Origin: Opitutia bacterium
Lineage (GTDB): Bacteria; Verrucomicrobiota; Verrucomicrobiia; Opitutales; Opitutaceae
NCBI GenBank assembly: GCA_003157575.1
Contig: PMKA01000231.1
Span: 1-15,096, forward strand
DNA: 15,096 nucleotides
Direction: 5' to 3'
The first letter of the stretch is position 1. Every line of letters starts with the position of its first letter. Position numbers and translations under genes: made by a program. Positions 2,064-11,614 of the stretch are shown piece after piece. The notes under the pieces are model-generated. The model had not been told where the DNA came from and did no database searches. It saw only the letters and a program-made list of their open reading frames with translations.

Positions 2064-3407
2064 TCAGGCCAGGGAGCCGTAGAGCACGCTGCTTGTGGCG
2101 CGCTCGATCCGGACCGGTGCCAGCGCGCCGATACGGTCTGCGCCGCAGGCAAAATGGACCGTCCGATTGCCGCTGGTGCGGCCCATGAACCTCAATCCCT
2201 TCCTGTCAGGCCCCTCGATGAGAACCTCCTGGACGGTGCCCACCAGAGCCTGGTTTCTGCGCAGGGAATTCCGTTCCAGCAGGCGGAGCAGGACCTGGTT
2301 GCGCGCCTCCTTGGTCTCCTCCGGCACCTGGCCCGGCATGTCGGCCGCAGCCGTGCCGCTGCGGATCGAATACTTGAAGACATAGGCCATGTCGTAGTTC
2401 ACAGCCTCGAAGAATTCCCGGGTCTGTGCGAAATCTTCCTCGGTCTCGCCGGGAAAACCGACGATGACGTCGGTTGAGAAATGCAGGTCCGGGCGGACCT
2501 GGCGCAAGGCGTCGACAATCTCCCGATACCGTTCGCGGGTGTAGGGCCGGTGCATGGCGCGGAGCATGCGGTTGCTGCCCGACTGCAGGGGAAGGTGGAT
2601 GCAGGAGCACAATTTCGGCAGCCGGGCGTACGCCTCCACGAGATCGCGTTTGAATCCGATCGGGTGCGGCGAGGTAAACCGGATGCGGGCGAGGCCGTCG
2701 ATCGCATGCACGCGCTCGAGCAGCTGCACGAAGGGCGTGGCTCCCCCCGGCGCCGCGCGATCGTGCCGGCCGTAGCTCGTGACAATCTGGCCGAGGAGCG
2801 TGATTTCGCGGACGCCGCATCCGACAAGCCCGCGGCATTCGCCGACGATGTCGTCCATCGGGCGGGAGCGCTCATCGCCGCGCGTTTTCGGTACGATGCA
2901 GAAGGTGCAGGCCATGTCGCATCCCTGCTGGATGGAAACGAACGCGGTGACCGGATGTTCGCCGAGCACGTGATCGCGGATGGCGTTCTGGGAGCCCGCC
3001 TCGCCGGCCACGTCGACGATCGTGTTTCCGAGGGGAATGCCGGCCTCGCGGGCCGCCCGCAGATTGTCGAGGTAACCCGGAACCTGGTGAAACTTCTGCG
3101 TGCCGACAATCAGGTCGACATCGGGCAGCTGGTCGAGCAGGGCCGCCCCGCGGTTCTGGGCCATGCAGCCCAATATCCCGAGCACGAAGCGCGCGTCGGT
3201 CTTCTTCCGGGCGGAGGCGCTGCCCGCCTTGCTGATGGCCTTTTGCTCGGCGAGATCGCGCACGCTGCAGGTGTTGAGCAGGAGGATGTCGCACTCATCC
3301 TCCCGTCCGACGATGCGGTAACCACGCGCGCGCAGCATGGCCGCGACGGCCTCGCTGTCGCGTTCGTTCATCTGGCAGCCGTAGGTTTTGATGAAGACCC
3401 GGTTCAT
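2064..3407 (-). CDS. miaB: tRNA-2-methylthio-N6-isopentenyladenosine(37) synthase MiaB
   Basis: A radical-SAM methylthiotransferase that adds a methylthio group to i6A37 of tRNAs reading UNN codons. The product has 447 residues, normal for the family. The N-terminal MTTase domain starts KTYGCQMNERDSEA, with cluster cysteines at 11, 47 (NTCSVR) and 81 (LGCMAQ). The radical-SAM CxxxCxxC is at 163, 167 and 170 (GCDMACTFC), followed by PKTRGDERSRP. FTSPHP, HLPLQSGSNRMLRAMHRPYTRERY and TDVIVGFPGETEEDF are typical. A TRAM-like domain ends the protein. The motif usually written LLGQNVNSY reads LLGQIVTSYG here, a mild divergence. The N-terminal KTYGCQMN block and QSGS region favour MiaB over RimO or MtaB. 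It is the first gene of a three-gene minus-strand operon. No strong Shine-Dalgarno precedes the ATG. Confidence 0.95.
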   Translation of the reverse strand: MNRVFIKTYGCQMNERDSEAVAAMLRARGYRIVGREDECDILLLNTCSVRDLAEQKAISKAGSASARKKTDARFVLGILGCMAQNRGAALLDQLPDVDLIVGTQKFHQVPGYLDNLRAAREAGIPLGNTIVDVAGEAGSQNAIRDHVLGEHPVTAFVSIQQGCDMACTFCIVPKTRGDERSRPMDDIVGECRGLVGCGVREITLLGQIVTSYGRHDRAAPGGATPFVQLLERVHAIDGLARIRFTSPHPIGFKRDLVEAYARLPKLCSCIHLPLQSGSNRMLRAMHRPYTRERYREIVDALRQVRPDLHFSTDVIVGFPGETEEDFAQTREFFEAVNYDMAYVFKYSIRSGTAAADMPGQVPEETKEARNQVLLRLLERNSLRRNQALVGTVQEVLIEGPDRKGLRFMGRTSGNRTVHFACGADRIGALAPVRIERATSSVLYGSLA

Positions 3408-3575
3408 GCCATGTCGCGCAAGTTCCGTCCCAACGCCATGCCGTGGATGCGGCTCGCCAATCCGACCGGATAGGAGGGTTCCCTTAGAAAAAGGCGGTCT
3501 TTAGGGATAAAAACGTGGGGAACGGCCGAATTCCCAGACAGAGCGTGAAGCATCCGGGCTAAGTACCCGCCTGTG

Positions 3576-3610
3576 TCCGGGGGTCAAACGGGAAACAAGA
3601 TGCCCCCGGA
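3576..3610. repeat. Inverted repeat / hairpin in divergent region
   Basis: TCCGGGGG (3576-3583) is perfectly complementary to CCCCCGGA (3603-3610) with a 19-nt gap. An overlapping alternative pairs CCCCC (3603-3607) with GGGGG (3611-3615). No T tract follows, so a terminator is unlikely. It could be an operator or a 5'-leader structure of the downstream operon. Confidence 0.45.
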
Positions 3611-3820
3611 GGGGGTGAAGATTGCCTGCATTGTCCGATGGACATTCCAGCACAACCTATTTTACATTGGTTCCGTTCGTATTTCCTGAGAGGAGAGCCG
3701 ATCTCCCCCCTGCCATGCCTGAACAACTCCGCCCTGCCGCTGCTGCCGCCCAGAACGTTTCGACGTTCTTTCCTCCGTTGTGCGCGACGCTGCTGTAGAT
3801 CGCGACGCCGCAGCTTTATC

Positions 3821-3825
3821 AGGAG
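3821..3825 (+). promoter_or_regulatory. Shine-Dalgarno AGGAG of the chaperone operon
   Basis: AGGAG lies 12 nt before the ATG at 3838. The spacing is slightly long, but it is one of the few clear ribosome sites in the window and supports that start. Confidence 0.6.
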
Positions 3826-3837
3826 AATCCTTTCCGG

Positions 3838-5766
3838 ATGACAGGGCTCAAAGTTCTGGCGGGGCCGCGCGAAGTGGCGAAGAGGATCGATCAGCTGAAG
3901 CTCTCCGCGGAGCTGGGCGGTGCAACGGAGCACTGGTCCTTCGCGCCGGAGAAGGCGCTGACCGTCGATGAACTCCGGGCGGTTTCGCAGGTCTTGAAGG
4001 AGCCCGAGACGCGGCTGGTCCACGAGCTGTTCTGGTTCTGGCCCGAAAAGTATCCCGAGGACGACCCCGCCGACATCGCCACAGGCCTGCTTGCAAAGGG
4101 TGAGACACAGCAGGTCATCGAGTATTGGGAGGATCTCGCAATCGACAACGGGCCGGTCGCCCTGCACAACCTTGCGGTCCTGTACCACCATCAGGCGCTG
4201 GAGTTGGACCGTCTCGAATCTCCCGCCGACCAGGATCTGGCCCAGCTCTGGCTGAAGGCGATCCGTTCCTGGGACCGGATTCGTGTTGATGAAGCCATCT
4301 GGGCGCGGCTTCGGGCGCGGGTGACCGCGCTCGCCGACGCGCGGATTCCGATGGAAATGGTCGGGCAGATGCGGACGACGGTGCCGGACGCCCTCGGGAA
4401 GATCTGCGCCGCGCTCGCATTGGGCCACGGAGAACAGGGACGCGCCGCCCGCGGCGGCCTCCACGCCGCGCTGGTGATGCATATCCACGGCGGCAATACA
4501 GACGCGCGCCGGGCTCTGGAGACCCGCGCGGCGCCCATCGCCCGCCGGATCGACGCCCGCATCAACGAGTCGAAAAACAGGGAGTCGCCGGACGACACCA
4601 ACGAGCTGGCGGAAGCATTGGCGCTCATCCGCGCCAACGACGACGACCTGCATCTGATCGAGATCCTATGCGGCCGGACGGCGGAGTATTACCGCGAAAT
4701 CTCGCAGAGCGTGGCGGACACCGCCCTCAATTGTGTCGTGTCCTATCAACGGCGGACCGGGGACGACTGCGGCTGTCTGCCCGCGCTCCTCCATCTGGTG
4801 GGCATGGAGACGACGCCTGAACTGAAGCTCCGGCTGTCGGACACCTACAGGATCGTCCACGGCAACGCGATCTCGGGCCAGCACCGGATCGTCCCGGAGA
4901 GACGGCTGGGTCCGATGGCGGATGAGATCGAGATGTCGGATTACGAGAAGGACTACGCTCTGCTCAAGGACCACGTCATCCCCGCCCTGCCGGGCCTCCA
5001 ACTGGGCAAGGCCTCGCGCGCGGCATTTTCGGACCGGGTTGCGGGCATGCTGAAGGATCTCGCCTTCGGGATCTACAGGGAGAACGACAATTTCACGTTT
5101 GCAGCGAACGCCTTTGCCACGGCGATGGAGCTGCCCTGCAGCCCCGCCGGGCGCCTTTCCCTGGAGAACGACCGGGCGAAACTGCAAAACGAGTTCGAGA
5201 CGCGGAAGGGAAAGGAACTGCGGCTGGCGGCGGCGGCCAACGTCCTTCAAATCAACGCGCAGGGCATCGATTTCAACGGGCGGTGGACGGCCGCGGCAGA
5301 TCTCGCGGGCCTGCGGCACAAAAGCGAGGGCGGCGGCGGCCTGTCGGGAGCGACCCATGTCATCGCCTGGCGGACAACCGGCGGCGCCGAGGTCGAACTG
5401 AACCGCACCAACCTGCTGGCGCCTTCGGACCACACGGCCCAGGATTATGCGCGGATACTTGACGCGATCTACTTTTTCTTCGTCCCGGATCTGGTCGACC
5501 GGCTTGTGGCGGCGATCCGCCGCGGCGAGGAGGTGCTCATCGGCGAAACGCCCGTGAAGGCCAAGGGAATGGTCCTCGCGTCCCCGGCGCGTTTTGGCGC
5601 CCGGGACGAGCTCGTGGCGTATTCTGCCCTGGAATACAAGGTCGAGGACGGCCAGCTTTCCCTGTCCAGCACGCTCAATCCGTGGCTCTCCGACTCCTAT
5701 GTGGTTGCCGACACCTGGAACGCGGTGATCTTCCAGCAGCTCATCGAGGCGGTGCAGCGCGAATAG
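3838..5766 (+). CDS. Helical-repeat (TPR-like) protein with HELFWFW motif; putative Hsp70-system adaptor
   Basis: A 642-residue cytosolic protein, with no signal peptide or membrane helix, that I cannot name. Residues 57-68 read ETRLVHELFWFW. An Arg/Leu-then-ELFWF motif of this kind is, from memory, found in proteins of bacterial Hsp70 gene clusters, sometimes behind a J domain. No J-domain HPD is present here. Residues 77-125 (ATGLLAKGETQQVIEYWEDLA, ALHNLAVLYHHQALELE-like) look like a TPR hairpin, and helices continue to about 345. Residues about 365-465 are helical. The C-terminus (about 468-640) has strand-rich blocks (INAQGIDFNGRW, THVIAWRTTGGAEVELNRTN, FVPDLVDRLVAAI, ELVAYSALEYKVEDGQLSLSS) resembling tandem PH-like domains. 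It leads an operon with a GrpE-like and an Hsp70-like gene, separated by 3 bp from the former. A client- or co-chaperone-adaptor role is inference from context. Confidence 0.85.
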   Translation: MTGLKVLAGPREVAKRIDQLKLSAELGGATEHWSFAPEKALTVDELRAVSQVLKEPETRLVHELFWFWPEKYPEDDPADIATGLLAKGETQQVIEYWEDLAIDNGPVALHNLAVLYHHQALELDRLESPADQDLAQLWLKAIRSWDRIRVDEAIWARLRARVTALADARIPMEMVGQMRTTVPDALGKICAALALGHGEQGRAARGGLHAALVMHIHGGNTDARRALETRAAPIARRIDARINESKNRESPDDTNELAEALALIRANDDDLHLIEILCGRTAEYYREISQSVADTALNCVVSYQRRTGDDCGCLPALLHLVGMETTPELKLRLSDTYRIVHGNAISGQHRIVPERRLGPMADEIEMSDYEKDYALLKDHVIPALPGLQLGKASRAAFSDRVAGMLKDLAFGIYRENDNFTFAANAFATAMELPCSPAGRLSLENDRAKLQNEFETRKGKELRLAAAANVLQINAQGIDFNGRWTAAADLAGLRHKSEGGGGLSGATHVIAWRTTGGAEVELNRTNLLAPSDHTAQDYARILDAIYFFFVPDLVDRLVAAIRRGEEVLIGETPVKAKGMVLASPARFGARDELVAYSALEYKVEDGQLSLSSTLNPWLSDSYVVADTWNAVIFQQLIEAVQRE

Positions 5767-5769
5767 ACC

Positions 5770-6300
5770 ATGAGCCACACCCTCCTTGCGCAGATCTTCG
5801 CCCGTGATCCGCGGAAACAGGCCCGTTTTCCTGAACTTCCGGTGGACGAGGCCTTGACCGCGCTTCGCCGCCTGGAGGTGAAATTGCGGGACCAGCAGCC
5901 TGCGGCGCCCGCGGCGGCGACACAGGAACCGGCGGCCGGCGACGCCGAGGAGCTGGCCGTCGCGTTTGGAGGGCTGGCGACGCAGATCTGGCGGGCGATG
6001 GGCAAGACGGTCGATCCAGCGACCGGCGAACCGCGCGAGGAAATGAAACGTGTCCACCGCCACATTGAGGGCGCGATGGACGTCCTCAAGCAGATGGGAC
6101 TTTCAATCAACGACTGGGTGAACCAGCCCTACGATGCCGGTCTGCCGGTCAAGGTGCTGACCTTCCAGCCGGCGACGGGTGTCACCCGCGACACCATTGT
6201 GGAGACGGTCCGGCCGACCGTGATGTGGAAGAACCGCCTGGTGCAGGTCGGAGAGGTTGTCGTGGGCACGCCGGCCGGTTCCGGAGAGAAGGCTTCATGA
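5770..6300 (+). CDS. Small GrpE-like protein, putative nucleotide-exchange factor for the adjacent Hsp70
   Basis: The 176-residue product has an N-terminal helical part (about 24-42), an Ala/Pro-rich linker (43-58), and a long helical stretch (59-120, including MKRVHRHIEGAMDVLKQMG). The C-terminal block TRDTIVETVRPTVMWKNRLVQVGEVVVGTP (139-168) has the order and spacing of the GrpE head, which in canonical GrpE reads like VVEELQKGY..NDRVIRPAMVKV. Known GrpE opens the DnaK nucleotide cleft and releases ADP; by analogy this protein could do so for the next gene's product. It has no convincing long N-terminal coiled coil and a Pro/Ala break, so it is at best a divergent relative. Its TGA overlaps the Hsp70 ATG (ATGA at 6297-6300), implying translational coupling. 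The coding frame is certain; the GrpE link is a moderate-confidence inference. Confidence 0.85.
   Translation: MSHTLLAQIFARDPRKQARFPELPVDEALTALRRLEVKLRDQQPAAPAAATQEPAAGDAEELAVAFGGLATQIWRAMGKTVDPATGEPREEMKRVHRHIEGAMDVLKQMGLSINDWVNQPYDAGLPVKVLTFQPATGVTRDTIVETVRPTVMWKNRLVQVGEVVVGTPAGSGEKAS
6283..6288 (+). promoter_or_regulatory. Shine-Dalgarno GGAGAG for the Hsp70-like gene
   Basis: GGAGAG sits 8 nt before ATG 6297, inside the end of the preceding gene. It decides the start: the open frame extends 24 codons further upstream, but those codons overlap the preceding gene and are not Hsp70-like, whereas translation from 6297 gives the typical N-terminus. Confidence 0.75.
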
Positions 6301-8783
6301 GCAGGACGACCGTCGATTACGGAGTCGATCTGGGAACGACCAACAGCACCATCGCGGTGGTGACGGGGACGACGACGGAGGTCATCAAGAATAATCTTGA
6401 ATCGGATATAACGCCGTCCGCCGTCTTCATCAGCGGCAAGGGAAATCTTTGGGTCGGCCAGAACGCCCGCTCGAAGATGGCCGACGAGCGCGCGGAGGAG
6501 GATGTGTTTCTCGAGTTCAAGCGGCGGATGGGCACCGGTTACGAATACAAGTTCCGGGCGAGCGGGCGGCGGATGAGCCCGGAGCAGCTTTCTGCGGAGG
6601 TGCTGAAGGCTCTCCGCGGCGACGTGGCCCAGAGAAAAGGCGAGGAGATCTCGGCGGCCGTGCTCACCGTGCCCGCGGCGTTCGAGCTCCACCAGTGCGA
6701 TGCCACGAAACGGGCGGCGGAGCTGGCCGGGTTCCAGACGTCGCTGCTGCTGCAGGAACCCGTGGCCGCGGCGCTGGCCTACGGGCACCAGAAGCTGGAC
6801 GCCAAGGCCTACTGGCTGGTCTTCGATTTCGGCGGCGGCACGTTCGACGCGGCGCTGATCCGCTCCGAGGACGGCACGATGGTCGTCGCGAACCACGGCG
6901 GCGACAATCTGCTGGGCGGTTCCGACATCGATTGGGCGATTGTGGAGCAGCTGCTCATCCCGCGGGTGAAGGAGCAGCTTGGGATTCGCGATCTGGAGCG
7001 CGGTTCCGCCGCCTGCAAGCACGACCTTCTGCGTCTCAAGGCGGCTGCGGAGACGGCAAAGATCGAGCTGTCGTACAAGGAGACGACGGCGCTCGAGGCG
7101 GCGCTGCGCCGGGGCGCCGGCGAACCCGTGTTGTTCGAGACCCAGCTCACCCGCCGGGAGGTTGCGCAAATCGCCGAGCCGAGCGTGCTGAAGGCGGTCG
7201 AAATTGCAAAACGCGTCCTGTCGGAAAAGGGCGTCGACCCGTCGGCGGTGGAGAAGATGGTCTTCGTCGGCGGGCCCACCCTGGCCCCGTATTTCCGGGA
7301 GCTGGTGAAGGAACAGCTCCGCATTCCGTTTGATGTCGGCGTCGATCCGCTGACCGTTGTGGCCCGCGGTGCGGCGATCTTTGCGGGGAGCCAGCGGCTG
7401 GCGCCCGGATCGGTTTCGGCGCCGTCGACAAGGACCCTTCTCCACGTCGAATTGTTCTACAGGCCGGTGGGAGCGGATTCTGAGCCGCTGATCGGAGGGA
7501 AAGTCGCCGTGCCTGCGGCGACTCCTGCCGGCTACTCGGTCGAAGTCGTCAATGTACAGTCGAAATGGCGCAGCGGAAAGGCCCCTCTCAAGGAGAACGG
7601 TTCCTTTCAATTCACCGTCCGGGCGGAACGCGAGATCCAGAACACGTTCCGGATCGAGGTGCGCGATCCGGCCGGCAACCTCTGCCTCACCGCCCCCGAC
7701 CAGTTCAACTACACCATCGGTGTGATCGTCGAGGAGCAGCCGATCATCAATAACATGGGTGTCGCGATGTCGGACAACAAGGTCGGCGTCCATTTCACCA
7801 AAGGACAGGGCCTGCCGGCCAAGCACAAGCGTTCCTACCGGACCACGGTGGGACTGCGGAAGGGAGAATCGGGAAGCGTGGTGAAGATTCCTGTGGTGGA
7901 GGGAAACCGCGAGCTGGCGGACCGGAACATCCTCATCGGCGCGCTCGAAATCACGCCTGACAAGATCGACCGCGATCTTCCTGCCGGCAGCGAAGTCGAG
8001 GTGACCATGCGCATGGACGCCTCGCGGCTGCTCACGGTTGTGGCCTATGTGCCGCTGCTGGACGAGGAGTTCCCGGCCAGGATCAACCTGGGGGGAAAGG
8101 TGCGCCAGCCCGACATCGCCGTGTTGCGGCAGGAATGGAATCGTGAACTGGCGCGCCTGACCGATCTCAAACAGGGGCTCGAAGAGGCCGGCGAGCGCGA
8201 TGCGGTCGAGATTCTGCGGCAGCTGGAGACCTCCGGGATGATGAGGAACCTGGAACGCCGGTCGATGGGCGATGGCGCGGATTTTGACGCTTTGCTGAAG
8301 GTCGACAGGGACTTGATCGAATTCAAGATCGCGCTTGACGATGTTGCCGCCAGGGTGGCCTGGCCTGCGAGCGTCCGGGAGGCGGAGAACTGGCTGGCGG
8401 ACCTCGACCGGCTCGTTGCGCGGGACGGCACGGAGGAGGAGAAGGCCCGGGGCCAGAAGCTGCGTGAGCAGGTGCGTTCCATCGTGGCGGACAAGAATGA
8501 GGACCGCCTCAAGAAGAAGATCGAGGAGATCGCCGACGTCTATGCAACGACCCTCTACCGCCGGCCGGTCTTCTGGATCGAGTATTTTGAGAGCCTCGGA
8601 CGGAGCCGCCTGCTGATGCGCGACCAGGCGAAGGCCGGCGCTCTTCTTCAGGAAGGACGGGGGTGCGTTGCCGTCAACGATCTGGTCGGCCTGAAGAATG
8701 TTGTTTTCCAGCTTCAAAACATGCTGCCGAGGAGGGTGGCTGAACTCGCCCGCCGGGGGTACGGCTCCGGGCTGGCCGCCTGA
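6297..8783 (+). CDS. Divergent Hsp70 (DnaK-like) chaperone with enlarged region between ATPase and substrate domains
   Basis: An ATP-dependent chaperone of the Hsp70 superfamily with 828 residues against about 640 for DnaK. The nucleotide-binding domain (1 to about 370) has all core motifs: phosphate-1 GVDLGTTNS (9-17), FKRRMG with the catalytic-lysine equivalent K75, EPVAAALAYG (154-163), phosphate-2 FDFGGGTFD (176-184), GDNLLGGSDID (202-212) and adenosine-motif VGGPTLAP (324-331). The DnaK autophosphorylated Thr in GDTHLGG is replaced by Asn204. The conserved hydrophobic linker (DVTPLSLGIE type) is not found. Residues about 375-500 instead form a strand-rich segment. A beta substrate-binding-like region resumes at GLPAKHKRSYRTT (505-517), comparable to DnaK's IPTKHSQVF, and runs to about 590. 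A long charged helical tail (about 605-828) closes the protein and lacks a DnaK EEVD-like or acidic end. It is coupled to the preceding GrpE-like gene and may be the central ATPase of a specialised system. Confidence 0.95.
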   Translation: MSRTTVDYGVDLGTTNSTIAVVTGTTTEVIKNNLESDITPSAVFISGKGNLWVGQNARSKMADERAEEDVFLEFKRRMGTGYEYKFRASGRRMSPEQLSAEVLKALRGDVAQRKGEEISAAVLTVPAAFELHQCDATKRAAELAGFQTSLLLQEPVAAALAYGHQKLDAKAYWLVFDFGGGTFDAALIRSEDGTMVVANHGGDNLLGGSDIDWAIVEQLLIPRVKEQLGIRDLERGSAACKHDLLRLKAAAETAKIELSYKETTALEAALRRGAGEPVLFETQLTRREVAQIAEPSVLKAVEIAKRVLSEKGVDPSAVEKMVFVGGPTLAPYFRELVKEQLRIPFDVGVDPLTVVARGAAIFAGSQRLAPGSVSAPSTRTLLHVELFYRPVGADSEPLIGGKVAVPAATPAGYSVEVVNVQSKWRSGKAPLKENGSFQFTVRAEREIQNTFRIEVRDPAGNLCLTAPDQFNYTIGVIVEEQPIINNMGVAMSDNKVGVHFTKGQGLPAKHKRSYRTTVGLRKGESGSVVKIPVVEGNRELADRNILIGALEITPDKIDRDLPAGSEVEVTMRMDASRLLTVVAYVPLLDEEFPARINLGGKVRQPDIAVLRQEWNRELARLTDLKQGLEEAGERDAVEILRQLETSGMMRNLERRSMGDGADFDALLKVDRDLIEFKIALDDVAARVAWPASVREAENWLADLDRLVARDGTEEEKARGQKLREQVRSIVADKNEDRLKKKIEEIADVYATTLYRRPVFWIEYFESLGRSRLLMRDQAKAGALLQEGRGCVAVNDLVGLKNVVFQLQNMLPRRVAELARRGYGSGLAA

Positions 8784-8877: not shown

Positions 8878-9372
8878 ATGAACGGATCTCCCGAGGCGCC
8901 GATTCTGACCTGCCTGCGTCTGCTGAAGGCGCTTGATCTTTCGCGTCGAGGGAAGATGCGTGCGGCGCAGTCGTTGCTTGTCGCCGAGGAGACCGCACCC
9001 GAGAATCTGGTCGAGCTTCATGCGCTGGCGGCCCTGGTCACCCGCGAGGGCGACTATCCGCGGGCGTTGCGCCTGTGGCGGATGCTCCTCGAACGCGACC
9101 CCCGGCACGCAGAGGCGGGAAGGATGATCGCTTCGATCGAATTGTGGCAGTCCCGTCCGCCCTGGGTTCGCTATGTTCCGGCAGGCGCGGCGGCCCTGGC
9201 CGTTGTGATCATTGCGCTCGTGGTCATCTTTTCGGGCGGCAGCCCGCCCCCGCCCGCAAGAACCGCGCCGCGGCCGCCGCCTGTGCTTTCGCCCGCGGGT
9301 TCCAGCCAAGCTCCCGCCGCCCCGCAGACCATCACGGTCCCGGGTGCGAACAAACGTCGTCAGGGCCCGTAA
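8878..9372 (+). CDS. Small TPR-like protein with single membrane anchor and Pro-rich tail
   Basis: The 164-residue product has helices at about 10-38, then a TPR-like hairpin (residues about 43-79) whose ELHALAALVTREGDYPRALRLWRMLLERDPRHAEA shows the usual small/large residue pattern. One hydrophobic membrane helix follows at about 99-118 (YVPAGAAALAVVIIALVVIF). The tail is a low-complexity Pro/Ala-rich segment (121-164) ending in basic residues. There is no N-terminal signal peptide, so a cytoplasmic TPR domain anchored by a central helix is likely, with the tail outside (topology inferred). It starts 94 bp after the Hsp70-like gene on the same strand and could tether that system to the membrane. 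No function is known to me. The ribosome site is weak. Confidence 0.75.
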   Translation: MNGSPEAPILTCLRLLKALDLSRRGKMRAAQSLLVAEETAPENLVELHALAALVTREGDYPRALRLWRMLLERDPRHAEAGRMIASIELWQSRPPWVRYVPAGAAALAVVIIALVVIFSGGSPPPPARTAPRPPPVLSPAGSSQAPAAPQTITVPGANKRRQGP

Positions 9373-10126: not shown

Positions 10127-10165
10127 CGTCGCGTGCGGGCTGCGCCTGCTTTTCATCCTGGCTTC

Positions 10166-11614
10166 ATGGGATTACTCGACCGGTTTGTTCCTCAACGCCC
10201 CGTGCGCCCGCCCCATGCGCAGGGGAAATCCGTTTCCGTGCCGGCTCCGGCGCCCCGGGCCGACGTCCGGCTTCCGGAGGAGAAGACTGCGGCCCCTGCG
10301 CCCGCTCCCGAGGAGCCTGCCCCATCCGCCGCCGGCGGAGTATTGGGGCGCCTCAAGGATGCGCGCGAAGCGTTCGCCCGCAAGGACCCCGCCGGCGCCG
10401 TGGCCATCTACGAGGAGGTGCTTGCCGTCGCCGGCGATCGCGCGGACGTCCTTGTGAGCATCTCCGGTGAACTCACCGCCAACGGATGTCCGCGGCAGGT
10501 CATCGATCTCGTCGCGCCGCACTACGATGCGCAACGTCACGGTCCGGCGACGGGCTTCAGTCTGCTGCAGGCCTACATCGCCGTTCGGGAGCCCGAGCCC
10601 GCACAGCATGTTCTCGACCTGCTCTACGCCCTCAACCGGCCTGATTTGCAGGAACGGCTGTTCGGGTTTTCAAATGTGATCGCCGACATGATTTCGCTTG
10701 GCGCCGATGGGACGCCCCCGGGGGCGTCTCCCGAAGCCGGCAGCGCGGCCGGAGGCCCGCCTGACGCCGCTCAGCCCCGGAAGATCGAGATGGCGAGCAT
10801 CAGCAAACCCATCTGGTTTTACGGATTGGAGGACATGGGCGGGCTGCTTCCCAGCAAGGCGGAGAATCTCCGCCGTGTGGCGTTTGCGCAGCTGGCGGTG
10901 CCCGGGCTGGCGGATTTTGCGGAGGTGATGAAACGGCCCGAGGAGGAACTTGGCCGGCTTTCGCGGGGCATCCCCCTCTGGCTCGCCGAGACCCTTTCCT
11001 TCAGCACGAGCTGGACGGGGATCGCAGCCGTCGCCACCTTGCGACGGGAACATTACGGGTTGTTCAACGCCGAATGGACCCACGACAACGTGCGGCAGCT
11101 CGTGGAAACCTCGGGAGACGGGTTCGACTACGTGTTCACCGGCGCCCTTTGGCATAAGGACGAGGCCTTCGAATTGCTCCTGAATCTCTGGGAAGTGAAG
11201 AAATTCCGCATGCGCAAGACATTCACACTTCGCTGGACTCCGGCGACCGCCGACAAGGCGCTTGCGGAATTCTACGCGCAATGGCGCGCTTTCATGGAGT
11301 TCAAGGCCTTTCCTGTCGGGGAGGGCATGGCCTATGAGCCGCCGCAAAATCTCCTCGACTATATCGAGGCGCTCGGGGCCTGCCTCACCCTTTTCCTCGT
11401 CGAGAAACAAGTCCTCCCTCCCGCGCAGGCGCTCGTGCCCGCCGAACTGGCCGCGCGCCTGGGCGCAGGCGCGGCGCAATCCGACGTCGCGTCGCTCCTG
11501 ACGCTCAGCCTTCACGCCCGCGCCCGGCGGCTGGCGCTGCCCGGTTTCGAGTCGCTGCCTCCGCTGGCCACCACGACAGCGGTGGATCAGGCCCGGCAGA
11601 TAGTGTCGTCCTGA
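10166..11614 (+). CDS. Two-part protein of unknown function (helical repeat plus conserved-looking C-terminal domain)
   Basis: The 482-residue product starts MGLLDRFVPQRP at ATG 10166; an in-frame GTG at 10133 would add 11 residues with no better ribosome site. Residues 20-57 are Pro/Ala-rich and disordered. Residues 58-165 form TPR-like helices (LKDAREAFARKDPAGAVAIYEEVLAVAG). Residues 180-206 are a second low-complexity linker. From 208 onward a separate domain begins ASISKPIWFYGLEDMGGLLPSKAENLRRVAFAQLAVPG and continues with aromatic-rich helices (LWHKDEAFELLLNLWEVKKFRMRKTFTLRW) to about 435. I see no signal peptide, membrane helix or catalytic signature. Shared TPR-like architecture with the upstream cluster hints at a protein-interaction role, but this is only inference. 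The 89-bp gap upstream suggests it may be its own transcription unit. Confidence 0.88.
   Translation: MGLLDRFVPQRPVRPPHAQGKSVSVPAPAPRADVRLPEEKTAAPAPAPEEPAPSAAGGVLGRLKDAREAFARKDPAGAVAIYEEVLAVAGDRADVLVSISGELTANGCPRQVIDLVAPHYDAQRHGPATGFSLLQAYIAVREPEPAQHVLDLLYALNRPDLQERLFGFSNVIADMISLGADGTPPGASPEAGSAAGGPPDAAQPRKIEMASISKPIWFYGLEDMGGLLPSKAENLRRVAFAQLAVPGLADFAEVMKRPEEELGRLSRGIPLWLAETLSFSTSWTGIAAVATLRREHYGLFNAEWTHDNVRQLVETSGDGFDYVFTGALWHKDEAFELLLNLWEVKKFRMRKTFTLRWTPATADKALAEFYAQWRAFMEFKAFPVGEGMAYEPPQNLLDYIEALGACLTLFLVEKQVLPPAQALVPAELAARLGAGAAQSDVASLLTLSLHARARRLALPGFESLPPLATTTAVDQARQIVSS
10711..10728. repeat. Perfect 18-bp GC palindrome inside a coding linker
   Basis: GACGCCCCCGGGGGCGTC is exactly self-complementary. 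It lies in the segment encoding the disordered Gly/Pro/Ala linker (about residues 182-188) of the preceding CDS entry. Confidence 0.7.

Follow-up and report, generated by a model that had tools for sequence, protein, structure and literature searches.

Organization of the locus

The window analyzed here is a 15,096-nucleotide stretch of contig PMKA01000231.1 from an Opitutia bacterium (Opitutaceae, Verrucomicrobiota; GenBank assembly GCA_003157575.1), and it carries a group of genes encoding a large protein (gene 1), a small GrpE-like protein (gene 2), a divergent Hsp70 (gene 3), and a TPR-like protein (gene 4). Judged from sequences and predicted structures, this group is on balance best read as an accessory four-gene Hsp70 module with a J-like partner that lacks the HPD motif, with an exchange factor of its own, and probably tethered to the membrane. 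The original prediction, made from the sequence alone, described three tightly packed genes, and the open reading frames (ORFs) bear this out: a gap of 3 bp (ACC) separates genes 1 and 2, while genes 2 and 3 share an ATGA overlap. Gene 4 follows gene 3 after 94 bp. The coordinates of genes and domains are collected in Table 1.

Table 1. Genes and domains of the Hsp70 locus, in window positions.
Feature	Position	Strand	Basis
Upstream in-frame part of gene 1 (leader and helix I, LYxENPFR), translated in relatives	3715..3837	+	Relatives
Gene 1, large protein, 642 amino acids from start 3838	3838..5766	+	ORF
Degenerate J-like domain, helices II-IV, no HPD, ends HELFWFWP	3838..4044	+	N-terminal profile and J homology
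Gene 1, helical solenoid (residues 121-500 of P0001, offset by 41)	4075..5214	+	AlphaFold2 model of P0001
Gene 1, C-terminal beta domains (residues 502-683 of P0001), first of PH/FERM-F3 type	5218..5763	+	
Gene 2, GrpE-like protein, 176 amino acids	5770..6300	+	ORF and predicted fold
Gene 3, divergent Hsp70, 828 amino acids counted from the ATG at 6297	6297..8783	+	ORF and Pfam
Hsp70 nucleotide-binding domain	6321..7388	+	PF00012 and DnaK alignment
Extra segment, linker to SBDbeta, bounds by eye	7449..7712	+	DnaK residue spacing
SBDbeta, bounds by eye	7713..8066	+	Second PF00012 stretch and DnaK alignment
Gene 4, TPR-like protein	8878..9372	+	Weak TPR matches and conserved position 3' of Hsp70

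Gene 1 begins with a J-domain that lost its HPD motif

A profile built from the N-termini of 108 gene-1 relatives matches residues 1-70 of the window protein (whole-sequence E 3.2e-22); 15 of the 123 proteins of this large family, including two fragments in which the N-terminus is missing, failed the N-terminal pattern and were left out. In a profile-profile comparison the gene-1 N-terminus matched J-domains with E 4e-6, and none of 200 shuffles did equally well; the J-domain side consisted of 29 domains selected by a pattern in which HPD is obligatory (29 of 30 loci). A small initial version of this test had given E 1.6e-4 (probability 51). Among the PDB rows matched by the N-terminal profile, 14 of 17 were J-domain proteins, and helices at residues 39-43, 51-67, 84-95, and 97-105 in the AlphaFold2 model of the relative P0001 fit J-domain helices I-IV. 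The aromatic motif HELFWFW, noted in the original prediction and present in this protein, closes the degenerate domain at the position of helix IV, and the "non-J adaptor" proposed there thus gives way to a protein that starts with a J-like domain.

An armadillo-repeat identity of the N-terminus was also considered and rejected. Designed armadillo chains led the search with a 9-sequence profile (E 5.9e-6), a value that is the sum over weak repeats with no single stretch passing, and DnaJ ranked 13th (E 0.0084); with the profile enlarged to 25 sequences J-domains came out on top and the armadillo rows were gone.

HPD is regarded as the defining and catalytically required element of J-domains. 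It is absent between helices II and III in all 108 relatives, and no HPD was found in the first 140 residues of the 15 proteins left out; the relative P0233 has the letters HPD, located ahead of helix I. Judged by sequence and predicted fold, the gene-1 relatives are thus J-like by descent at their N-terminus, with the HPD motif lost. Searches of the gene-1 protein against Pfam, NCBIfam, and PADLOC gave no useful match, and Pfam gave none to the DnaJ C-terminal domain. When the whole gene-1 model was compared by Foldseek and VIA, the matches were only unspecific ones to solenoids and PH-like folds (best Foldseek E 0.016), and the J-like domain was hardly probed.

In the relatives, gene 1 starts 41 codons upstream, at a position equivalent to the in-frame ATG at 3715. 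Codon 28 of that frame is a stop in the window (TAG, 3796-3798) and Glu in P0001 (95% identical); this TAG may be a real nonsense change or an assembly or sequencing error. An intact relative is carried by locus L014 of Opitutaceae bacterium EW11. In the loci L024 and L087, gene 1 is split over two frames. The locus L026 carries tandem gene-1 relatives (545-2266 and 2327-3832) ahead of a single GrpE-like gene and a single Hsp70, and this tandem suggests that each Hsp70 of that lineage has two J-like partners.

Gene 3 is an Hsp70 with altered J-contact residues

The assignment of the third protein to a divergent Hsp70 in the original prediction is backed by a match to PF00012 (E 1.3e-74), and the score with the DnaK equivalog model TIGR02350 is 258.9 bits against a cut-off of 822.55; by these sequence models, gene 3 is an Hsp70 and not a DnaK equivalog. 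The catalytic residues T11, K70, E171, T199, and D201 (DnaK numbering) are intact in all 21 Hsp70s of the gene-3 family. In canonical systems D35, the aspartate of HPD, forms hydrogen bonds with R167 and Q378 (PMC8215388), and the defect of DnaJ D35N is suppressed by R167H (PMC7289447). The equivalents of these two residues in the window protein are Leu150 (codon 6744-6746) and Phe362. Throughout the family (21/21) R167 is lost to Leu, Pro, Ala, or Ser, Q378 is replaced by Phe and N170 by Gln, and D148 and R151 are absent, whereas each of 17 canonical DnaKs of related genomes keeps all five, as do HscA and HscC of E. coli.

The family Hsp70s are also extended, with 145-160 residues (146 in the window protein) between the equivalents of Q378 and P419, compared with 42-44 in the 17 DnaKs of relatives and 42, 44, and 48 in E. 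coli DnaK, HscA, and HscC. The extra segment of about 100 residues gave only weak Ig-like database matches. The SBDbeta that follows is weakly supported but placed, by a second PF00012 stretch (7755-8183, E 2.6e-4, 19.7 bits) and a second DnaK alignment stretch (23.9 bits). A GrpE-signature loop is present with different letters in the family and is shortened in HscA. Of the two cleft bridges named in PMC8215388, one is represented by K or R at position 55 (20/21) and E267 (21/21), and the other is not kept.

Gene 2 encodes a GrpE-like protein

The predicted structure of the gene-2 protein has the long helices and beta head of the GrpE fold, and Foldseek groups it with GrpE, in agreement with the original prediction. 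PF01025 gave no match to it at E up to 1, the NCBIfam GrpE model NF010741 reached E 0.025 and 14 bits (cut-off 184), and a sequence search of the PDB with the gene-2 profile returned three unrelated chains and no GrpE. Because of this last result the GrpE call rests on the fold, the weak NCBIfam match, and a weak match of the gene-2 profile to the canonical GrpE of the same genome (E 5e-4). On its predicted fold, gene 2 is a GrpE homologue that lies below the model cut-offs.

Other chaperone genes of the genome

The source genome, G000, is fragmented (546 contigs, 73.6% complete). It contains one canonical GrpE (PF01025) adjoining a DnaJ on contig C15, a DnaK-like N-terminal fragment (PF00012; called DnaK by eye and score) at the edge of contig C149, and two further J-proteins. 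Because grpE and dnaJ of canonical type are found elsewhere, together with the DnaK-like fragment, the operon is not the housekeeping copy. The genome-wide absence of a canonical set, which would have refuted the original prediction, did not arise, and the distinction from the housekeeping system made there stands. The module could still be viewed as a drifted duplicate of the ordinary dnaK/dnaJ/grpE set, with gene 3 a canonical DnaK-like paralogue, since its three functional classes are identical to that set and the best PDB matches of gene 3 are DnaK chains. The low TIGR02350 score, the consistent loss of HPD (108/108) and of the docking residues, the extra segment in every family Hsp70, and the lack of a DnaJ C-terminal domain match in gene 1 argue against such an origin, which we consider highly improbable.

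The same genome has a second divergent Hsp70 locus, spread over L030 (G000:C121, 1-7456) and L029 (G000:C250, 1-3908), with genes for a ClpB-like AAA_2 protein, a Ser/Thr kinase with TPR, a TPR protein, two Hsp70s in tandem, and a small protein that by eye also seems to begin with a J-domain lacking HPD. These contigs probably adjoin each other, since the residues at which an Hsp70 fragment breaks off are those with which it resumes.

Distribution and conservation of the module

Within the family Opitutaceae the gene-2 profile matched 19 of 252 genomes, a patchy distribution, and within the phylum 7 of 387, including G108 and the window's own. The match in G108 (E 7e-4) reads by eye as a canonical GrpE and was not counted. 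The loci of the 19 family genomes and three others of the phylum give 22 distinct loci, after exclusion of the duplicates L080, L081, L083, and L084; named relatives are from Opitutia, Opitutaceae, and other Verrucomicrobia records. Relatives of both partners of gene 2 were present in 19 of the 21 further loci, more than expected by chance, which supports the conserved neighbourhood; one of the remaining two lacks gene 1 and the other Hsp70, both at contig ends. Gene-1 relatives occur in 21 of the 22 loci (L025 has a Sel1-like fragment at its contig end) and Hsp70 likewise in 21 (L092 stops at the contig edge). Gene 1 and a gene-3-type Hsp70 are neighbours in 20 of 22 loci for which context is available, and the remaining two lie at contig ends; the distance between gene 2 and Hsp70 in L095 is ~1.4 kb. 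The J-like region is kept in gene-1 relatives labelled as several phyla. No description of the module was recognized among the results of literature searches in open-licence PMC.

Gene 4 and neighbouring genes

Gene 4 matches Pfam TPR models weakly (best E 0.0034, below cut-off) and contains a hydrophobic stretch at 9175-9231 (best 19-residue mean hydropathy 2.83), as does each of its 17 relatives (1.92 to 3.18). It is present in 17 of the 22 loci, with relatives 3' of Hsp70 in L012-L016 and L024; it was not found in L027, L093, and L095, and the contig ends in L092 and L094. From its sequence and position, gene 4 is a fourth module member, a TPR-like protein with a predicted hydrophobic helix. 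The original prediction of a chaperone module is sustained as to its own GrpE-like factor; the module is at best putatively self-contained, and the original prediction overlooked this fourth gene.

The window neighbours scanned were guanylate kinase, radical-SAM/TRAM, nitroreductase, DAHP synthase, DNA-alkylation-repair, and PIN genes, and one protein without a family. At 10133-11614 lies a gene for a 493-residue protein with no Pfam family above cut-off; its relatives occur downstream in L012 and L013 only, among nine loci compared, and it is possibly a further late gene of the module neighbourhood.

Alternatively, the module might supply the chaperones of a system for conflict or signalling, of the kind described near GAP1-N2 GTPases or Ser/Thr kinases, in which Hsp70 and GrpE go with a DnaJ/TPR-fused component. 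HSP70, GrpE, and DnaJ- or TPR-fused FNIII proteins are reported from ~14% of GAP1-N2 neighbourhoods (PMC7159879), and a Ser/Thr kinase gene lies 5' of gene 1 in three divergent loci (L027 and L095 by Pfam, L094 by motif only). However, no GTPase, GAP1, or FNIII gene was seen among the window neighbours scanned, the other loci being scanned in part, and PADLOC gave just one weak 30-residue match (E 0.0021), on the Hsp70. We therefore regard this interpretation as improbable.

Proposed function

In the accessory module, the products of all four genes would act together. The J-like domain would dock exclusively on the gene-3 Hsp70, through a co-evolved contact replacing that of the HPD aspartate with R167/Q378; the solenoid and PH-like part of gene 1 would select the client or site, the GrpE-like protein would reset the nucleotide on the Hsp70, and gene 4 would anchor the machine to the membrane. 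Because HPD is lost and the Hsp70 is without matching contact residues, the pair probably uses a rewired switch. We tentatively suggest that the ATPase might be fired by the HPD-free J-domain, both halves of the contact having been replaced together, to give an orthogonal pair that has a GrpE to itself and is kept apart from the DnaK network of the cell.

The losses on both sides of the contact (HPD in 108/108; R167, Q378, D148, and R151 in 21/21) would also be expected if J-stimulation had been lost completely. The J-like domain would then serve as a scaffold or, like Pam16, as a regulator, without any stimulation of the ATPase; the Hsp70 would be a holdase, slow or Hsp110-like, with its cycle set by the client and the GrpE-like factor alone. 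Pam16, whose degenerate J-domain functions in mitochondrial import, is a precedent; Pam16, however, works together with Pam18, whereas the module showed no J-protein with HPD. Since the J-like region is kept in relatives labelled as several phyla and gene 1 adjoins Hsp70 in 20 of the 22 loci, a kept gene 1-Hsp70 contact is suggested, and the loss of stimulation appears rather unlikely.

Several observations weigh against the accessory module with a rewired J-Hsp70 pair. No single J-like sequence passes the Pfam cut-off of 27.8 bits (14.3 bits for the best-listed member), and because of the TAG at 3796-3798 the window copy of gene 1, read from 3838, is without helix I. The Foldseek TM-scores to GrpE are just 0.33-0.48 by query length. 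R167 is lost also in four other divergent Hsp70-like proteins (L029, L030, L119, and L120), so that its loss fits that of HPD but is alone no proof of co-evolution, and the L029 Hsp70 also has a long segment (144 residues). All loci were selected via a gene-2 relative, and a gene 1 or Hsp70 living without gene 2 would escape. Gene 2 was not seen in three of six same-genus genomes, so the module is dispensable.

Since it retains a J-like domain, an exchange factor, and the linkage of their genes while both HPD and its Hsp70 contacts are gone, the accessory module would permit a direct test of the role of the HPD contact, and it is a possible orthogonal chaperone pair.

Comparison with known systems

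The module resembles the DnaK-DnaJ-GrpE triad in having an ATPase with catalytic residues, a J-type domain, and a GrpE-fold factor. It differs in lacking HPD and R167/Q378, in the extra segment before SBDbeta, in a J-like domain that is fused to a solenoid and PH-like domains, and in a TPR partner with a hydrophobic helix, and the canonical genes sit separately in the same genome. Pam16/Tim16 and other degenerate J-domains are alike in placing an HPD-less J-fold near an Hsp70; in the module, the docking residues of the Hsp70 are changed too, and an HPD-bearing J-partner was not seen. GAP1-N2 GTPase systems likewise link HSP70 and GrpE to a J or TPR component and differ in their GTPase and FNIII genes, of which none was seen among the window neighbours scanned; PMC7159879 reports GAP1-N2 neighbourhoods as a class also from Verrucomicrobiae, with the HSP70 theme mainly in Actinobacteria and Firmicutes. 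HscA/HscB and HscC/DjlB-DjlC likewise combine an accessory Hsp70 with a dedicated J-type partner, of which DjlC is membrane-inserted (PMC8215388), and HscB and DjlC carry HPD in our sequence check. These systems made the opposite trade: HscA and HscC kept R167, N170, and Q378 and are reported to have lost the interaction with GrpE (PMC8215388), whereas the module keeps a GrpE-like gene and has lost HPD, thus inverting their pattern.
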